Origin: Thermoplasmata archaeon
Lineage (GTDB): Archaea; Thermoplasmatota; Thermoplasmata; Thermoplasmatales; GCA-001856825
Length of the DNA: 38,079 nucleotides
Assembly (NCBI GenBank): GCA_021787125.1
Contig: JAJYMI010000073.1
Location: 1 to 38,079 of the forward strand
Direction of reading: 5' to 3'
A program made the translations under genes and the position numbers. Of the stretch, positions 5,542-14,359 are shown in pieces (position 1 is the first letter of the stretch; every line of letters begins with the position of its first letter). Below the pieces are notes generated by a model. The model saw nothing but the letters and a program-made list of their open reading frames with translations, had not been told where the DNA came from and ran no database searches.

Positions 5542-7319
5542 TTGAAGAATTCGTTAAATTCGAGTTACTTTGGAAAATGGGTAATTGTCGGTCTTCTTAT
5601 CGGAATAGTGGCGGGGATCGGAGCTGCTGCATTTTATTACATCATTCAATTCGCTACCGACAATTTCCTGGGCAGAATAACAGGTTTCTATCCTCCAAAC
5701 CCTGCAGGCGAAATCGCGGCCGCTTTGTCCATGTCTCCTCACTATTATCTCATCCCACTTTCCATCGCTCTCGGTGGTCTGATTACAGGACTTATAATAT
5801 TCTACCTTGCACCTGAAGCTGAAGGTCACCGGACAGATGCAGCTATCGATGCCTTCCACAACAGGAATGGCATCATCAGGAAGCGCGTTCCTATAGTGAA
5901 AATGATAGCATCTGCAATTACTATCGGATCGGGCGGGAGTGGGGAAGGGAGGGACCGACAGCTCAGATCTCAGCTGGTTTCGGTTCGTACGTTGCAACCG
6001 TATTGGGAATGTCCAACAGAGATAGAAGAATAGCGGCGGCTGCTGGAATCGGAGCAGGAATAGGAGCAATATTCAGGTCTCCGTTTGCAGGTGCAATTCT
6101 CAGCGCCGAGATTCTGTATAGCGGAGACGACATGGAGGTGGAGGCCCTGGCACCCGCATTTATAGCATCTCCTGTTGGATATGTTATATTTGCTTCCCTT
6201 ACCAGTTTTTCACCAATGTTCAGCCTTTTCTACGCCTAATACGTTCAATCACCCGCTAAATCTCTTTCTCTATGCCATCTTAGGCATGGTATGCGGCTTG
6301 GTCGGGAAATTCTATTCTTCTTTCTTCTATTGGGTGAAAGGCATTTTCGCTAAATTGAGGGTAAAGAAATATCTCAAGCCTATGATAGGAGGCGCGGTGG
6401 CAGGAACGTTTGCTATGCTCTTTCCGCAGACAGTTGGGACGAGTTACGGATATCTTCAATACCTCATGAACGGTAACCTAAAGGCTGCAGAACCCATATA
6501 TTTTGCAGTTCCGATTATTGTAGCCCTCGTAGTACTGGCCTTTGCGAAGATAGTCGTTACGTCTTTCACCATTTCATCCGGGGGGAGCGCGGCGTATTGG
6601 CTCCAGAGCTTGTAATCTGTGGTTTCGTTGGAGCAGCCATGTGGACAGACGTTCAAATGATCAGTCCCTCTTTAGTCCCCTCGCCCGCTCCATTCGTGTT
6701 GGTCGGCATGATGGCGTTATTCGCCTGCGTCGGAAGAGCCCCGATAGCCGTTGTCCTGATGGTAAGTGAAGTGACTGGAAGCCTTGAAGTAATGATACCT
6801 TCCATGATTGCTGTGGTAATCTCGTACTGTGTCGTTGGATACAAATTCTCTATATATGGAAGCCAAGTGAGGAACACGGCAGAGTTGCAGGCTCACCGGG
6901 GGAAGTACAGCATCCCAGTTCTTTCATATCTTACCGCCAAGGATGCCATGACCAGAGATACTCCAAAGATTGACTCTTCTACCACCGTTTCCAGTGCGTT
7001 AATACTAATGGAAGAGGAAGGGGTTACGGGTATCCCCATTATCAATGATGAAAAGCTTGCTGGAATAGTGACAAAATCTGATTTGGTACAAGTGAAGATC
7101 ATTCATCAGGACATGGTGTCAGTTTCGCACGTTATGACTAGAAATGTGGTGTTCGGCTACTCAGACGAAAGTCTTCTCGAAATTATGAAGAAACTTTCCG
7201 TCAACAACATCTCTCATGTCCCCATCGTCGCCAGAGAGAACAACGAGGTTATCGGCATGGTCACCTGGAACGCTATATTCAAAGCTCACCAAGAGTTTAG
7301 CGCCAGAACATCTACCTGA
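5542..7319 (+). pseudogene. CLC-type chloride channel with C-terminal CBS pair, interrupted by three single-base frameshifts
   Basis: ORFs 5542..6033, 6003..6239, 6175..6615 and 6597..7319 are consecutive parts of one CLC-CBS protein; each junction is repaired by adding or removing one base. Confidence 0.85.
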
Positions 7320-7544: not shown

Positions 7545-7928
7545 CTAAGGGATCTCAGATCGCCTTTCTACGAACCTAAGAAACGGAATTAACATTTCTC
7601 TAACCTTCCAACCCAACTCGGTGAGCGAGTAAACAACTCCCTCCGGTCCTTTGTGTTTCACGATCAAATCTAACTCTTGGAGCTCTTTCAACCTCTTGGA
7701 GATAATAGTAGAGCTCGAAAATGGAATGTCAATCAGTATCTCGTTGAAATTTTTCCTTTTGCCGGTGTTCCCAATAACCCCCAGCACAAGCATTGTGTAT
7801 TTCTTGCCGATCAGGTTCAGGATAGGGAGCGAAGAGTCTATGCAGATTGTAGAATCCCCATCTTGGATCATGCAAGCCTTGTTCTTGTTTTCCTCTCTTC
7901 TGCGTTCGTAGTTTCTTACCTTATCCAT
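7545..7928 (-). CDS. HxlR-type winged-helix transcriptional regulator
   Basis: ICIDSSLPILNLIGKKYTMLVLGVIGNTGKRKNFNEILIDIPFSSSTIISKRLKELQELDLIVK...YSLTELGWKVREML matches HxlR layout; divergent from the HMA/MerA genes. Confidence 0.8.
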   Translation of the reverse strand: MDKVRNYERRREENKNKACMIQDGDSTICIDSSLPILNLIGKKYTMLVLGVIGNTGKRKNFNEILIDIPFSSSTIISKRLKELQELDLIVKHKGPEGVVYSLTELGWKVREMLIPFLRFVERRSEIP

Positions 7929-8006
7929 TCTAACTCGTATCTACCATCAACACAAGTAAAAAAAAGTTTACGTATTCGGTTTAATATTTTCTATCAATAT
8001 CTGAAT

Positions 8007-8237
8007 ATGGAAGTTGGGAAAGTGAAACTGAGGATATACGGAATGACTTGCGGAGACTGTGTTACCAAGATATCCAGAAGTCTTCTGGAAAAACAAGGAG
8101 TTATGGACGTCAACATATCACTACAAGAGGGTCTCGGTGAGGTCGAATTTGATCCGACAGATTTGAAGCCAGGCGATATTCTAAAGAATCATGTATTCTC
8201 AAGAAATTCACACTACAGGGCAACTCTAATAGAGTGA
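8007..8237 (+). CDS. HMA-domain heavy-metal binding protein (MerP/NmerA-like)
   Basis: In-frame ATG at 8007 inside track ORF 7677..8237: MEVGKVKLRIYGMTCGDCVTKISRSLL, the GMTCxxC metal motif. Confidence 0.85.
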   Translation: MEVGKVKLRIYGMTCGDCVTKISRSLLEKQGVMDVNISLQEGLGEVEFDPTDLKPGDILKNHVFSRNSHYRATLIE

Positions 8238-9694
8238 TAAAAGGAAGACCCTGTATGAGAAAAGAACCAAAACGCTACGACCTCGTCATTCTAGGTAGAG
8301 GAGCTGCAGCTTTCTCCGCTGCCATCAAGGGCTCTGAGATCAGCAATGGAGAAATGAGCATAGCATTGATCGGAACGGGACCCCTAGGAGGAACATGCGT
8401 GAATGTTGGATGCGTTCCTTCTAAATACTTGCTCGAAGCTTCACACCGTGTTTTCATGCCAAAGCACCCCAGGATTGATGGAATTTATGAAACCATAGTG
8501 AATCATGATTTCTCGACGGTGATGAAAGGACTAAGATCATACGTGAGGGATGCTAGAGAGTCAAAATATGCAGAGGTGATCAGGAATTACAACAACGTAA
8601 CGCTGTACGACGGACTCGGCAAATTCCTTGACAGGAAAACGGTAGGGATAGAAGATGACAAAGGAAGGAATGTTCGAATTGTTTCAGGCTCAAACATTCT
8701 GATTGCAACGGGTTCACGTCCCTCTATTCCAAATATTGAAGGCCTCACAGAGGCTGGCTTCCTGACCAGCGACTCGCTTTGGGACATTGATAAACTCCCT
8801 TCGTCCGTGGCCATTATTGGCGGAGGGGCAATCGGCTTGGAAATCGGGCAGGCACTCCTCCACTTTGGCTCAAGAGTCACAATTGTTGAGGCAATGGATT
8901 CCTTGTTGCCACAGACCGAGTCAGAGATTGGTTCCGCTCTGAGAACTCTGCTTGAGAAGGAAGGTATGAAATTCTACATGAGGGCAAGGATTAGCAGAGT
9001 GCACAAATACAGAAAGAAGAAGTCAGTTGAAATAATCACTCACAAGGGAAAGGAGAAAATAGCTGTTGATGAAGTTCTCTTGGCAACAGGGAGAGAGCCC
9101 AATACGAAAAACCTCAACCTCGAGGTAGCAGGAGTGAAGACGGATCCAAGGGGAATGATACTAACCGAAGCTTCAATGCGGACAACTTCCCCCGGAGTAT
9201 ATGCGGCTGGAGATTGTGTATCCAAGAAGCTGTTTTTGGAGACCCTTGCAGCAAGGGAAGGAGTGATCGCAGTCAGTAACATGTTCGGGGAAACCGCAAA
9301 CATAGACTATGGATCATCGGCATGGGCCGTTTTCACCTATCCACAGGTTGCAGGCGTTGGAATGACGGAAAACGAATTCTCTAAAAAGAATGGTTCTTGT
9401 CTGTGTAGGACTTTTCCACTCTCTAATCTCACCAAAGCTAGTATTATGGGTGAGACAGAAGGTCTCATAAAGATAACAGTTGACCCGAAGGACAATAGAA
9501 TTGCCGGAATGCAGATAATGGCTCCTAACGCAACCGACATGATAACGGAGGGAGCATATGCAGTCCGCAATGGGTATACGATCGATGACATAATAGCAAC
9601 GAGCCACATATTTCCATCCATGTCCGAGGGGATAAAGATCGCAGCCCAGTCGTTCATAAGGGACATAACCAAGATGTCATGCTGTGTGGAATGA
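8234..9694 (+). CDS. merA: Mercuric reductase (flavin disulfide reductase family)
   Basis: GGTCVNVGCVPSKYLLEASH redox motif; C-terminal ...KMSCCVE vicinal Cys pair typical of MerA; GTG start overlaps the HMA stop (alternative ATG 8255). Confidence 0.87.
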   Translation: MIKGRPCMRKEPKRYDLVILGRGAAAFSAAIKGSEISNGEMSIALIGTGPLGGTCVNVGCVPSKYLLEASHRVFMPKHPRIDGIYETIVNHDFSTVMKGLRSYVRDARESKYAEVIRNYNNVTLYDGLGKFLDRKTVGIEDDKGRNVRIVSGSNILIATGSRPSIPNIEGLTEAGFLTSDSLWDIDKLPSSVAIIGGGAIGLEIGQALLHFGSRVTIVEAMDSLLPQTESEIGSALRTLLEKEGMKFYMRARISRVHKYRKKKSVEIITHKGKEKIAVDEVLLATGREPNTKNLNLEVAGVKTDPRGMILTEASMRTTSPGVYAAGDCVSKKLFLETLAAREGVIAVSNMFGETANIDYGSSAWAVFTYPQVAGVGMTENEFSKKNGSCLCRTFPLSNLTKASIMGETEGLIKITVDPKDNRIAGMQIMAPNATDMITEGAYAVRNGYTIDDIIATSHIFPSMSEGIKIAAQSFIRDITKMSCCVE

Positions 9695-9862: not shown

Positions 9863-10594
9863 TTAGACGTCCAAGAGCATGATTTGCCCAAGAGTGGTCA
9901 GCCTTGCCTTCACCCTGCCTCTTTCTTCCTTGGAAACCTCTACCAATCCAAGTTCAGTTAAGCCCCTGCTATCCTCAGCCCCGTTAATGTGTCTGCTAAT
10001 CAGAGACTTTTCCAGTCCGGTGCTTTCTGTTAGCGATTCCAGGCTTTTTACTGTACCACCTGCTCTACCGATGGCCTTGAGGATTAACATTTTTGTATCA
10101 GAAAGCACATGGTTGTAGCCGAGTTTCAGAATAGGCATGACATGGCTTCCAGATTGATCTATGTAAAATGCTCTTATACCGAAAAAGAAAGCAGAAGACA
10201 GTGAAGTGCAGGCAAGTATCTTGCCACCAGAAGTGAGATTCATTACTGTTTCCGTAAAGTTCTTGGAATTCTTGTCGTAAATGGCCTTAACAGCGCTGAG
10301 TACACCGTCTATCCCATTAGAGAGTACAGGGACTACTTCTACCTCAAGGTCGATGGCTTCATTCAGCTGCCTGGCAAAAACAGAAAGTGTCTGAGAGACC
10401 ACGTCATACTTTCCCTTTGGTTCCGTCTCGAATAGTATTATAAGTTTGTTAACGGGGAACGCTTTTAGGCCGGCCTTTATGCCTTCTAGTGATTGGTCCC
10501 CACTGAATATCGCTATCTGCAGAACCCTCTCCTTAAGATTGGCCTCTTCCCCTACCAGATCTGCCATTGAACATGAATTCGTAATTGAATACAT
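9863..10594 (-). CDS. CARF-like sensor domain plus winged HTH regulator (Csa3 / DUF6293-like)
   Basis: TVMNLTSGGKILACTSLSSAFFFGIRAFYID resembles the CARF ligand loop; C-terminal wHTH SDTKMLILKAIGRAGGTVKSLESLTESTGLEKSLISRHINGAEDSRGLTELGLVEV. Track start is 10636; in-frame ATG 10594 or 10567/10565 region more likely. Confidence 0.7.
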   Translation of the reverse strand: MYSITNSCSMADLVGEEANLKERVLQIAIFSGDQSLEGIKAGLKAFPVNKLIILFETEPKGKYDVVSQTLSVFARQLNEAIDLEVEVVPVLSNGIDGVLSAVKAIYDKNSKNFTETVMNLTSGGKILACTSLSSAFFFGIRAFYIDQSGSHVMPILKLGYNHVLSDTKMLILKAIGRAGGTVKSLESLTESTGLEKSLISRHINGAEDSRGLTELGLVEVSKEERGRVKARLTTLGQIMLLDV

Positions 10595-10615
10595 AAATAT
10601 AGTTATACTGAGGGG

Positions 10616-10642
10616 TTTGTATTTCTTCCCGTTCAACGGTTG
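10616..10642 (-). promoter_or_regulatory. CAACCGTTG box, 12 nt before weak TATA-like TACAAA upstream of CARF-like gene
   Basis: Minus strand CAACCGTTG 10642-10634, AACGGGAAGAAA, TACAAA 10621-10616; ATG 10594 is 27 nt on. Confidence 0.4.
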
Positions 10643-10760
10643 TATGTCATGGGGACAGAAAGATTACTCCCTAGAACTACGCTAATTTCGTCGCTTCCGA
10701 TGATGGCAGTCGTTCACCTTTTCCCCTTCAACCTGTGGAGGAGAACAGAGAGGCGTCCCT

Positions 10761-10787
10761 CAACAGTTGAGCGCACAGCTCTAAATA
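10761..10787 (+). promoter_or_regulatory. CAACAGTTG box, 12-nt spacer, TATA-like TAAATA upstream of C2H2-membrane gene
   Basis: CAACAGTTG 10761-10769, agcgcacagctc, TAAATA 10782-10787. Confidence 0.6.
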
Positions 10788-10814
10788 ATCAACGAAAATA
10801 AAACGACGATAAAA

Positions 10815-11447
10815 ATGGCAGAAATGAAATGCGAAGCATGTGGAATGAGTTTCAACTCGAGGGAGAAGTTGATGGATCATGCGATGCACATGCACGGAAT
10901 GGGCAATCAACCGGAGATGGAAAGCAAAGGGGGAAAAAGTCTAAAACGCATACCCATTGGAGGCGCAGTGTTCGGCGGAGTTATCGGCGGTATAGTGATG
11001 GCAATAATCCTCGCCGCCGGCGGGATGATGCTTGGTACGGGCGCAGTCGGGATGTTCATGGTGATAGGCATGAGTCTTGGAGCAGGAATGATGGCCGCTG
11101 CATCAGTGGGGTTAGTGCTTCACTTTGTCGTTGCAATTGTTGCAGGCCTGATATTTGGAATCGCAATCTATGCCATAAAACCATTCAGGAATATATCCTC
11201 AACGAGAGGTCTCGGGCTAGGAGCTCTCTACGGCATTATCGTATATCTGGTATTCTTCCTTCCGATGGCAATAAAAGTACTCTCACCGACAATGATGCAT
11301 CTGATGGGACCGAAAGCATCGATGATGATGGGTACCGTCCTGGCAATAGCGTTCATCGGACATCTCTTGTACGGACTGATCTTGGGTTTCACAACTTTCT
11401 TCTTCGCTAGACCTAAGACAGGAACGTCGAGGGGAGTTACTGCATAG
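10815..11447 (+). CDS. C2H2 zinc finger fused to multi-pass membrane domain
   Basis: MAEMKCEACGMSFNSREKLMDHAMHMHG (C-x2-C-x12-H-x4-H) followed by several hydrophobic Gly/Met/Ala-rich helices. Confidence 0.8.
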   Translation: MAEMKCEACGMSFNSREKLMDHAMHMHGMGNQPEMESKGGKSLKRIPIGGAVFGGVIGGIVMAIILAAGGMMLGTGAVGMFMVIGMSLGAGMMAAASVGLVLHFVVAIVAGLIFGIAIYAIKPFRNISSTRGLGLGALYGIIVYLVFFLPMAIKVLSPTMMHLMGPKASMMMGTVLAIAFIGHLLYGLILGFTTFFFARPKTGTSRGVTA

Positions 11448-11452
11448 AGTGG

Positions 11453-11971
11453 ATGGTGTGTCTGAAGATGATTGAATTTACAGACGATTTCCGGGAAAGG
11501 ATGAGACACAAACTCTCCAGCTATTCCCACGCAGATTCGCTTGGTAGTGTTCGAGGGACGGTGACAGTCAGCACTGTCAAACGATCAGACCTCGATTCTG
11601 AAACCTTTATTCAAGGGAGCGCAGGTAGACTTCTTTCTGGTGAGGGGAACATCAGTCCCCTTGCCTATTTTCTTTCAGGTATGACCATCTGTCAAAGTAT
11701 TCACTTTGCGGAATGGGCGTCGACTTCTGACATCAAGGTTGAATCGCTTGTCATTGAGGCAAAAGGAGAATTCAGTGTGAGCAGACCTAGGAGCTTCATA
11801 AAGATTGACTACTTGATAAAGATTGAAAGTGAAGAAAGCCAAGAAAGGATTATGGGTCTCATAAGCAGGGCCACCTCCGACTGTTTCGTAACAAATACAC
11901 TGAAGAAAGCCTGTGAGGTGACTGGATTGATTTCAATCAATGGTAAACAACCGTTAGAAATAACCAATTGA
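11453..11971 (+). CDS. OsmC-family protein
   Basis: EGNISPLAYFLSGMTICQSIHFAEWAS...CFVTNTLKKACEVTG matches OsmC layout. Confidence 0.75.
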   Translation: MVCLKMIEFTDDFRERMRHKLSSYSHADSLGSVRGTVTVSTVKRSDLDSETFIQGSAGRLLSGEGNISPLAYFLSGMTICQSIHFAEWASTSDIKVESLVIEAKGEFSVSRPRSFIKIDYLIKIESEESQERIMGLISRATSDCFVTNTLKKACEVTGLISINGKQPLEITN

Positions 11972-12268
11972 TGGTTATTTTCCATTCGAGTCTGTTCAGT
12001 TCATGGATGAACGTGCGTCGAACTCAAGCTCACCAGTGACTAGGGGGACATAAGTATACTGGAAGGAATAACCGAGTTGAGATCTTGAAGGTACCAAAGG
12101 GACTGCAAGATGTGCTGTTTGAATTTGACTGACCAGAAAGAGAGTTCATATAAACATTCTAAGTCTAATCACTGATATTAGGGTACAAACAAAACTGATG
12201 AAGAATCCTTCTAGAATACGCTACACTGATCTCATTTCAAAACTCATTCTGACCTAAGTACCTCACCA

Positions 12269-12295
12269 CAACAGTTGAGAGACATCTGTTAATAA
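12269..12295 (+). promoter_or_regulatory. CAACAGTTG box, 12-nt spacer, TATA-like TAATAA upstream of HPP gene
   Basis: CAACAGTTG 12269-12277, agagacatctgt, TAATAA 12290-12295; ATG 26 nt from TATA start. Confidence 0.6.
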
Positions 12296-12315
12296 CATCT
12301 TTCAAATCTTTCATT

Positions 12316-12774
12316 ATGAAAACAGACTTGCCAGAACTGGAATCATCTAAATCAAAAGTTGTAAAATACTTCATCTTTCTAGCGATTACTTCGATCGTGC
12401 TAATACTGATTTCATTCAGAAGTGATTTCCTTCTTGCCCCACCGTACGCAGTTTCTGCGTATCTAATAGTGTTTAGTCAAAAATCACACCGCTACAACGG
12501 AAAGAGCGTGGTTGCTGCATATCTGTTAGTAATAGCGGGCTCCGATCTCGCTCACATCATCGCAGGTGCTAACGTAGCCGGGATGCTGCTCAACGTAATC
12601 ATAGTATCAGCATTTATTACATTCACGAATCTTAGTCATCCTCCTGCCATCGCTTTGTCGATTTTTTCCTACATAACCAATAGCCCACTGGACTTTACAA
12701 TCTCCTCTCTCCTAGCGCTCATGGCCTTGGTAATATCAACCATTCTCTTAGGAAGATACTCCGTTACCAAATGA
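12316..12774 (+). CDS. HPP-family integral membrane protein
   Basis: FLLAPPYAVSAYLIVFSQ... and SHPPAIALSIFSYITNSPLDF; four hydrophobic segments. Confidence 0.75.
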   Translation: MKTDLPELESSKSKVVKYFIFLAITSIVLILISFRSDFLLAPPYAVSAYLIVFSQKSHRYNGKSVVAAYLLVIAGSDLAHIIAGANVAGMLLNVIIVSAFITFTNLSHPPAIALSIFSYITNSPLDFTISSLLALMALVISTILLGRYSVTK

Positions 12775-12858
12775 CGTAATTTCAATGTGTCAAATTGAGA
12801 TAACACTGAGAGTGGTCAATGGGAATAGATGACCAGCTCCACAAGTTGGAGCTCCTGT

Positions 12859-12885
12859 CAACGGTTGTGCGTCAAGTGTTAAATA
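12859..12885 (+). promoter_or_regulatory. CAACGGTTG box, 12-nt spacer, TATA-like TAAATA upstream of C2H2 microprotein
   Basis: CAACGGTTG 12859-12867, tgcgtcaagtgt, TAAATA 12880-12885. Confidence 0.6.
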
Positions 12886-12916
12886 TCGTATTCTCTTAGT
12901 AAAATCAGGTGAAAAA

Positions 12917-13009
12917 ATGCCAGAAGAATTCAGATGTAATGCATGCAACATGAACTTCAAGACAAAAGCAGAACTCGAAGAGCACGGAAAGAAATACCAC
13001 ATGCACTGA
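12917..13009 (+). CDS. 30-aa C2H2 zinc-finger microprotein
   Basis: Not in track. MPEEFRCNACNMNFKTKAELEEHGKKYHMH* (C-x2-C-x12-H-x4-H); AGGTGA Shine-Dalgarno at 12907; TATA TAAATA at 12880. Confidence 0.8.
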   Translation: MPEEFRCNACNMNFKTKAELEEHGKKYHMH

Positions 13010-13728: not shown

Positions 13729-13953
13729 ATGACGAACATGACTCTTGCTGTCCCAAACGATCTCATGGAGGTAATGAAGAGGCACAAAGAAATCAAGTGG
13801 AGTGAGGTCGCGAGGCAGGCACTGAATGAAAAAGCTAACGAGCTCAGACTTATGGACGAAATCCTTTCTAAGAGCGTGCTCACGGAAGATGACGCTGTGA
13901 GAATTGGAAAGATGGTCAATGAGAACATTGCAAAAAGGCATAGATTAAAATGA
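13729..13953 (+). CDS. VapB-like antitoxin
   Basis: MTLAVPNDLMEVMKRHKEIKWSEVARQALNEKANELRLMDEIL RHH-type; stop overlaps a PIN-domain start (ATGA). Confidence 0.75.
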   Translation: MTNMTLAVPNDLMEVMKRHKEIKWSEVARQALNEKANELRLMDEILSKSVLTEDDAVRIGKMVNENIAKRHRLK

Positions 13954-14359
13954 AACTTGTCGTAGATGCAAACATTCTGATTGCATCTTTGATTAGAAGT
14001 GGAATTTCTCGCTCATTATTATATCGCGAGAAATTTAATTTGGTGAGCCCAGATTTTTTTTGAATCTAGAGTTGAACAAACACCGGAATCTTATATCGCA
14101 GAAATCCGAGTTATCAGAAAATGAGGTTTCCATAGTAATGGCTATATTACTCAAAAGAGTTGAAATAATATCTCTGTCGGAGTATCAGGAAAAACTAGAA
14201 GATGCAGTGATGTTGATGAAGGAAAATATCAAGGATGCACCTTACGTCGCCTGTTTCCTCGCTCTGAAGTGCGATGGTATATGGACAAATGACTTAGACT
14301 TCAAAGGAAGATCAGGAATCAAGGTTTTTCAGACTAGAGATTTAGTCGAAAAGATCTGA
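13950..14359 (+). pseudogene. VapC-like PIN-domain toxin, frameshifted at a T8 run
   Basis: MKLVVDANILIASLIRSGISRSLLYREKFNLVSPDFF* then, in another frame, LNLELNKHRN...DAPYVACFLALKCDGIWTNDLDFKG; one extra T at 14054-14061 joins both. Confidence 0.75.

Follow-up and report, generated by a model that had tools for sequence, protein, structure and literature searches.

What reads a short palindrome that recurs at one fixed distance upstream of the TATA-like boxes of a small archaeal gene cluster, and what does its reader control? In the 38,079-nucleotide stretch of DNA analysed here (the window), the palindrome CAACNGTTG precedes genes for a CARF-winged-helix (CARF-wHTH) protein, two membrane proteins and a C2H2 microprotein.

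A palindrome at a fixed distance from TATA-like boxes

We found four copies of CAACNGTTG in the window, at 10634, 10761, 12269 and 12859, against an expectation of 0.35 in shuffled sequence, with four or more copies reached in 0 of 100 shuffles. All four are intergenic and confined to 2.23 kb, for which the Poisson probability is about 1e-7, or 7e-5 when windows are allowed for. Read toward each gene, the gap from core to hexamer is exactly 12 nt at 4/4 sites, the hexamers being TAAATA, TAATAA and TAAATA and, at the minus-strand site, TACAAA. This observation is real, and bears out what a preliminary description of the locus had claimed, namely four palindromes at a fixed 12 nt and no further copy in the window. 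Cores with one mismatch are unremarkable here (19 versus 12.2 expected), so the signal lies in the exact core together with its position.

The source genome (1.40 Mb in 95 contigs, 83% complete) holds 26 copies in all. The 22 outside the window set lie mostly in open frames, with a few apparently intergenic, and exact N12-TWWWWW is absent from every one of them. The scan for the motif followed by N12-TATA, which had been proposed as a check, returned three exact cases genome-wide, all of them window promoters; the motif does not recur genome-wide with the same frequency and spacing. The fourth copy, described earlier as sharing the spacing, does keep exactly 12 nt to TACAAA, but this hexamer is poor, and four of the 22 other copies equal it in fitting the hexamer with one mismatch. 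What makes the CARF-gene site distinctive is orthology, since all other CARF loci likewise have their site 47–48 nt ahead of the start codon. No occurrence of CAACNGTTG appeared among the papers listed by a literature search.

Table 1. Candidate operators, promoters and genes of the cluster, in window coordinates.
Feature	Position	Strand	Details
Candidate operator, C2H2-membrane/OsmC unit	10757..10773	+	core CAACAGTTG 10761-10769
C2H2-membrane/OsmC promoter		+	TATA-like CTAAATA 10781-10787; ATG 10815
Candidate operator, HPP-membrane gene	12265..12281	+	core CAACAGTTG 12269-12277
HPP-membrane promoter		+	TATA-like TTAATAA 12289-12295; ATG 12316, leaderless predicted
Candidate operator, C2H2 microprotein gene	12855..12871	+	core CAACGGTTG 12859-12867
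C2H2 microprotein promoter		+	TATA-like TTAAATA 12879-12885; ATG 12917
Candidate operator, CARF-wHTH gene	10630..10646	-	core CAACCGTTG 10642-10634
CARF-wHTH promoter		-	weak TACAAA 10621-10616; ATG 10594
CARF-winged-helix protein	9863..10594	-	243 aa; proposed regulator/autoregulator
Membrane protein	10815..11447	+	C2H2 finger N-terminal
OsmC-family protein	11453..11971	+	in one unit with C2H2-membrane gene
HPP-type membrane protein	12316..12774	+	
Single-C2H2-finger microprotein	12917..13009	+	30 aa
HxlR / HMA / mercury(II) reductase	7545..9694	HxlR -; HMA, reductase +	linked, without operator, not counted as targets

Promoter-oriented sites from 14 genomes (37 sites, 34 distinct palindromes, three of them read both ways) extend the core to a full operator, the imperfect 17-bp palindrome CCGTCAACNGTTGACGG. 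Position 13, four bases beyond the core, is a G in 37/37 sites, including all four in the window; this G was never in the search pattern and occurs in 8/77 background matches (Fisher P 4e-19, with 29 sites left once close relatives were dropped). The flank preferences are dyad-symmetric (T/A at 0/10, G/C at -1/11, C/G at -2/12 and C/G at -3/13), and the promoter-proximal arm is the better conserved. On the 3' side, a BRE-like AA at 16–17, beginning 2–3 nt past the end of the palindrome, is followed by TTAWAWA at 21–27 and by AT at 38–39, the position expected of a -10 element. Start-codon distances are nearly constant within each gene family, from which leaderless or nearly leaderless mRNAs are predicted; with an assumed start at ~48–50 nt, no leader would be expected on the CARF, OsmC and HPP mRNAs, and the dyad would fall near -44. 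CARF promoters keep the operator and have a poor, divergent TATA box (33% identity), and in two genomes (G074, G105) a single palindrome stands between divergent genes, with N12 to a TATA box on both sides.

Two further features of the window were recorded. A CLC-type chloride channel gene with CBS domains (5542–7319) is split across four overlapping frames, as either a pseudogene or the product of assembly frameshifts; an intact relative of ~589 aa is found in two other loci, L146 and L147, where broken CARF genes (L146 1793–2516 in G098; L147 364–952 in G099) lie near a CLC gene, as in the window. At 13729–14359, a small gene and the short frame behind it resemble, by eye, a VapBC-type antitoxin/toxin pair.

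Conservation of the candidate operator and its target set

Orthologues were sought across the order, in 117 genomes. For the C2H2-membrane gene, seven genomes besides that of the window hold a clear orthologue, and further matches were partial or weak; the orthologue in the same family (G038) is 85% identical, and the six in a second family (f6) are 47–52% identical. All eight full-length genes carry CAACNGTTG, 12 nt and a TATA-like box, 54–56 nt before the ATG. Wherever the OsmC gene forms a unit by itself, as in f6, G028 and G074, it also has an operator (46–48 nt before the ATG), and in the window it follows the C2H2-membrane gene; since elsewhere it is found alone and equipped with an operator, its control by the promoter ahead of 10815 is plausible. 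In G000 and G038 the HPP gene is preceded by an operator of its own, and in G054 and G104 it lies behind OsmC. Both OsmC and HPP genes change operon partners between families. Microprotein genes carry the operator 56–58 nt before the ATG in five genomes (G000, G038, G064, G051, G074) and sit farther from it in G028. The CARF gene itself has the operator or a one-mismatch variant 47–48 nt before its ATG in 9/9 intact loci and in two broken copies, with one core mismatch at four CARF-gene sites. In all, five small gene families carry the site.

Comparison of the window's family (f1) with f6 gave 100% identity over the core plus G13 at the C2H2-membrane and OsmC promoters and 91% at the CARF promoter, with flanks of 20–31% identity and a range of 14–40% over upstream flank, spacer and downstream DNA. 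The operator is conserved beyond neutral divergence, in other genera and in a second family, and several transcription units share this site on the upstream side of BRE/TATA. Within the window, the four promoters show 24% identity upstream and 29% in the spacer; being unrelated outside the shared elements, they are not recent duplications, and the earlier argument from their differing spacers stands.

Conservation beyond the order was considered and rejected, because the operator was found neither near distant CARF homologues of other classes nor in G413, a genome of another family of the class that carries the gene module of CARF, OsmC, C2H2 proteins, a flavoprotein and HxlR-HMA-MerA. G254 has one exact core, without the promoter arrangement. 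Among named genomes, the module is carried by Thermoplasmata MAGs and by that of uncultured archaeon clone ASS_A1 (CP009479). Also in G413 (L217 2915–5669), the finger DNA of a membrane protein with a C2H2 finger is near-identical to that of a separate microprotein with two fingers, which suggests a recent duplication.

The putative regulon looks confined to this locality. A wider genomic regulon was rejected, as the matches to the refined pattern that were inspected beyond the cluster in genomes with CARF, the single-contig G073 and G104 among them, lie in open coding frames. HPP genes of CARF-negative genomes have no operator nearby, and some HPP genes of the CARF-positive genomes G064 and G111 are also without it. 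In f6, the gene behind that for the C2H2-membrane protein encodes a pyridine-nucleotide disulfide oxidoreductase, which scores below the specific NCBIfam cut-offs listed. In G105, genes for DUF427, EgtB and EgtD lie codirectionally behind an operator-bearing OsmC gene, and EgtB and EgtD exceed the NCBIfam cut-offs for ergothioneine biosynthesis; in G054 and G104, EgtB/EgtD relatives lie close to the cluster but carry no operator. This target set (OsmC, the disulfide reductase and, in one genome, EgtB/EgtD) suggests a response to thiol, peroxide or metal stress. MerA, HMA and HxlR were rejected as targets because these adjoining genes carry no operator; the window MerA scores above its family cut-off.

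Some individual loci deserve mention in their own right. In one CARF-negative genome (G113 contig 47), a membrane-protein frame of 776 aa is preceded at 49 nt by an intergenic CAACTGTTGAAGG-N7-TATTTAT-like site (L263 897–946). In G064, an OsmC gene (L142 11689, minus strand) is truncated and the operator ahead of it has decayed to two mismatches. Contig 71 of G038 (L135 2448–2554) carries a second operator and, at its edge, the 3' end of a CARF gene; the OsmC frame behind this operator has been destroyed by seemingly transposase-like sequence.

The CARF-wHTH protein as candidate regulator

The protein encoded at the CARF locus gives weak profile matches to MarR_2 (residues 164–208) and to the HFX_2341-like N-terminal domain PF19810, the latter below its curated cut-off, and its match to the Csa3 family TIGR01884 (E 4e-5) reaches 23.0 bits against a cut-off of 60.2. 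Its predicted structure is modest (pLDDT 66, pTM 0.48); the top PDB fold match of this low-confidence model is Csa3 (2wte, E 8.8e-6), with other CARF proteins next, and the model is consistent with an N-terminal CARF Rossmann-like domain followed by a wHTH. C8 and C129 are invariant in nine aligned orthologues, in which the wHTH segment is strongly conserved, and C129, read by eye, is also present in distant homologues. Among the 117 genomes, the C2H2-membrane gene occurs only alongside intact CARF (8/8, Fisher P 1e-11) and the OsmC subfamily occurs with CARF in 8/10 cases (P 6e-10), both values ignoring shared ancestry.

The best candidate regulator is thus the CARF-wHTH protein, and the interpretation in the preliminary description, that one factor, plausibly this one, controls all four promoters, appears largely right. 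Own-gene sites in the intact cases, co-occurrence and the Csa3-like fold speak for it; against it stand operator-bearing targets without CARF. No CARF gene was detected in G074 (96% complete) despite its operator-bearing OsmC and microprotein genes, and this genome is a real exception. None was detected in G051 beside an operator-bearing target, where the contig stops at the operator. Elsewhere the gene is a remnant or broken: G028 (52% complete) keeps a CARF 3' remnant next to the operator, and in G098 and G099 the CARF genes are broken with the upstream operator intact.

Starting from what the genomes themselves display, namely operator, spacing, conservation, target set and co-occurrence, we consider it probable that the four palindromes are the operator of a single factor, most likely the CARF-wHTH protein, activating its own gene and a local regulon. 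The CCGTCAACNGTTGACGG copies lie just upstream of BRE/TATA, their dyads ~44 bp ahead of the predicted transcription start; a single winged-helix factor acting as a dimer, in all likelihood the cluster's CARF-wHTH protein, would occupy all four and help TFB/TBP onto suboptimal promoters. Archaeal activators typically bind upstream of the BRE, from where they bring TBP or TFB to such promoters (PMC5512572). By analogy, the protein may control its own gene through autoregulated activation. The local regulon would comprise the C2H2-membrane and OsmC genes, the HPP membrane protein and the C2H2 microprotein, with the disulfide reductase added elsewhere and ergothioneine genes in one genome.

The main mechanistic rival, which we regard as unlikely, keeps the same regulon and factor and has the CARF-wHTH protein act as a repressor that impedes TFB at the neighbouring BRE until a signal releases it. 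The BRE-like AA lies close enough to the palindrome to fit such hindrance, and autoregulation is common among repressors. Both a site strictly upstream of BRE/TATA and poor TATA boxes, such as those of the CARF and some OsmC promoters, are, however, characteristic of archaeal promoters that are activated (PMC5512572, PMC4706686, PMC7830388). Slightly less likely still, a different, unlinked DNA-binding protein may read the operator, with the CARF gene merely one of its targets, as the OsmC and microprotein genes of G074 and G051 could indicate; yet no other regulator family was found to be conserved beside the cluster across loci (HxlR is common to few), the CARF gene both bears the operator and co-occurs with the target set, and assembly gaps together with recent CARF loss explain some of the exceptions. 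It is very improbable that a C2H2 zinc-finger protein, either the microprotein or the membrane protein, reads the 4-bp half sites: at least one C2H2 protein or remnant is present in nearly every operator-carrying genome, but the microprotein has only 30 aa and an acidic helix without a basic arm, the larger protein is membrane-bound, and both are themselves targets. Chance or core-promoter composition, by which the word would merely recur near TATA boxes as the near-expected number of one-mismatch cores might hint, is next to inconceivable given the exact recurrence across archaeal families against randomised flanks and the invariant G13.

A possible CARF regulator outside CRISPR

If the CARF-wHTH protein is the activator, the signal that it senses is unlikely to be cyclic oligoadenylate, because no Cas10 was detected: the Cas10 palm2 domain was not found in nine CARF-positive genomes, two of them single-contig, and we rejected cyclic oligoadenylate signalling through Cas10 on this ground. 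No cas genes were seen in the neighbourhoods examined. The Csa3-specific cA4 motif 1, hydrophobic-G-F-N/D-x-hydrophilic-F (PMC8844856), is not apparent by eye in this CARF family, whose loop reads SDGQSYKGI or SGDQSLEGI. Tentatively, a Csa3-like CARF protein outside CRISPR, with no Cas10 source, may have been turned into a thiol-redox or metal-stress sensor with a small self-contained regulon and a 17-bp operator. Its sensing element could be C8 together with C129, or the ligand could be a nucleotide other than cyclic oligoadenylate.

The closest parallel is Csa3a with its CAPPa palindrome in Sulfolobales (PMC8699464, PMC8844856). Csa3a is likewise a CARF and wHTH protein; its palindrome, 18 bp as against 17 bp here, is 12 bp upstream of BRE and TATA (PMC8699464), just upstream of these elements as in our cluster, and in both systems TFB/TBP recruitment at a non-canonical TATA box is proposed. 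The CAPPa sequence (TCCCN8GGGA) is unlike the operator described here, and Csa3a, a cA4-binding protein, is encoded among CRISPR-cas genes, whereas the targets here are OsmC, C2H2 and membrane-protein genes and no Cas10 was found. In vitro binding of its palindrome by Csa3a was non-specific only in one study (PMC8699464), and specific binding has been reported in another (PMC8844856). MM_0565 of Methanosarcina mazei, a dimeric CARF-wHTH protein, is a proposed activator outside CRISPR-cas, as we propose for the present protein, but no distinct binding motif was found for it (PMC7465815), whereas the candidate operator here is sharply defined. A palindrome directly upstream of the BRE is associated with activation also for CopR (PMC7830388) and for TrmBL1, whose upstream sites lead to activation and downstream sites to repression (PMC4706686); these Pyrococcus furiosus regulators belong to other protein families and have wider regulons than the candidate regulon here.

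What appears to be new is a CARF-wHTH-linked local regulon with a defined candidate operator and no Cas10 found. What is known of CARF-wHTH proteins comes mainly from CRISPR regulators, whose operators are poorly defined; in this cluster the candidate operator is sharply conserved, the promoter geometry is fixed, one gene seems to be autoregulated, and the target list is short, with no Cas10 found. CARF sensing outside type III CRISPR thereby becomes directly testable, and the cluster offers clues to the function of the orphan C2H2 microproteins and HPP membrane proteins of acidophilic archaea.
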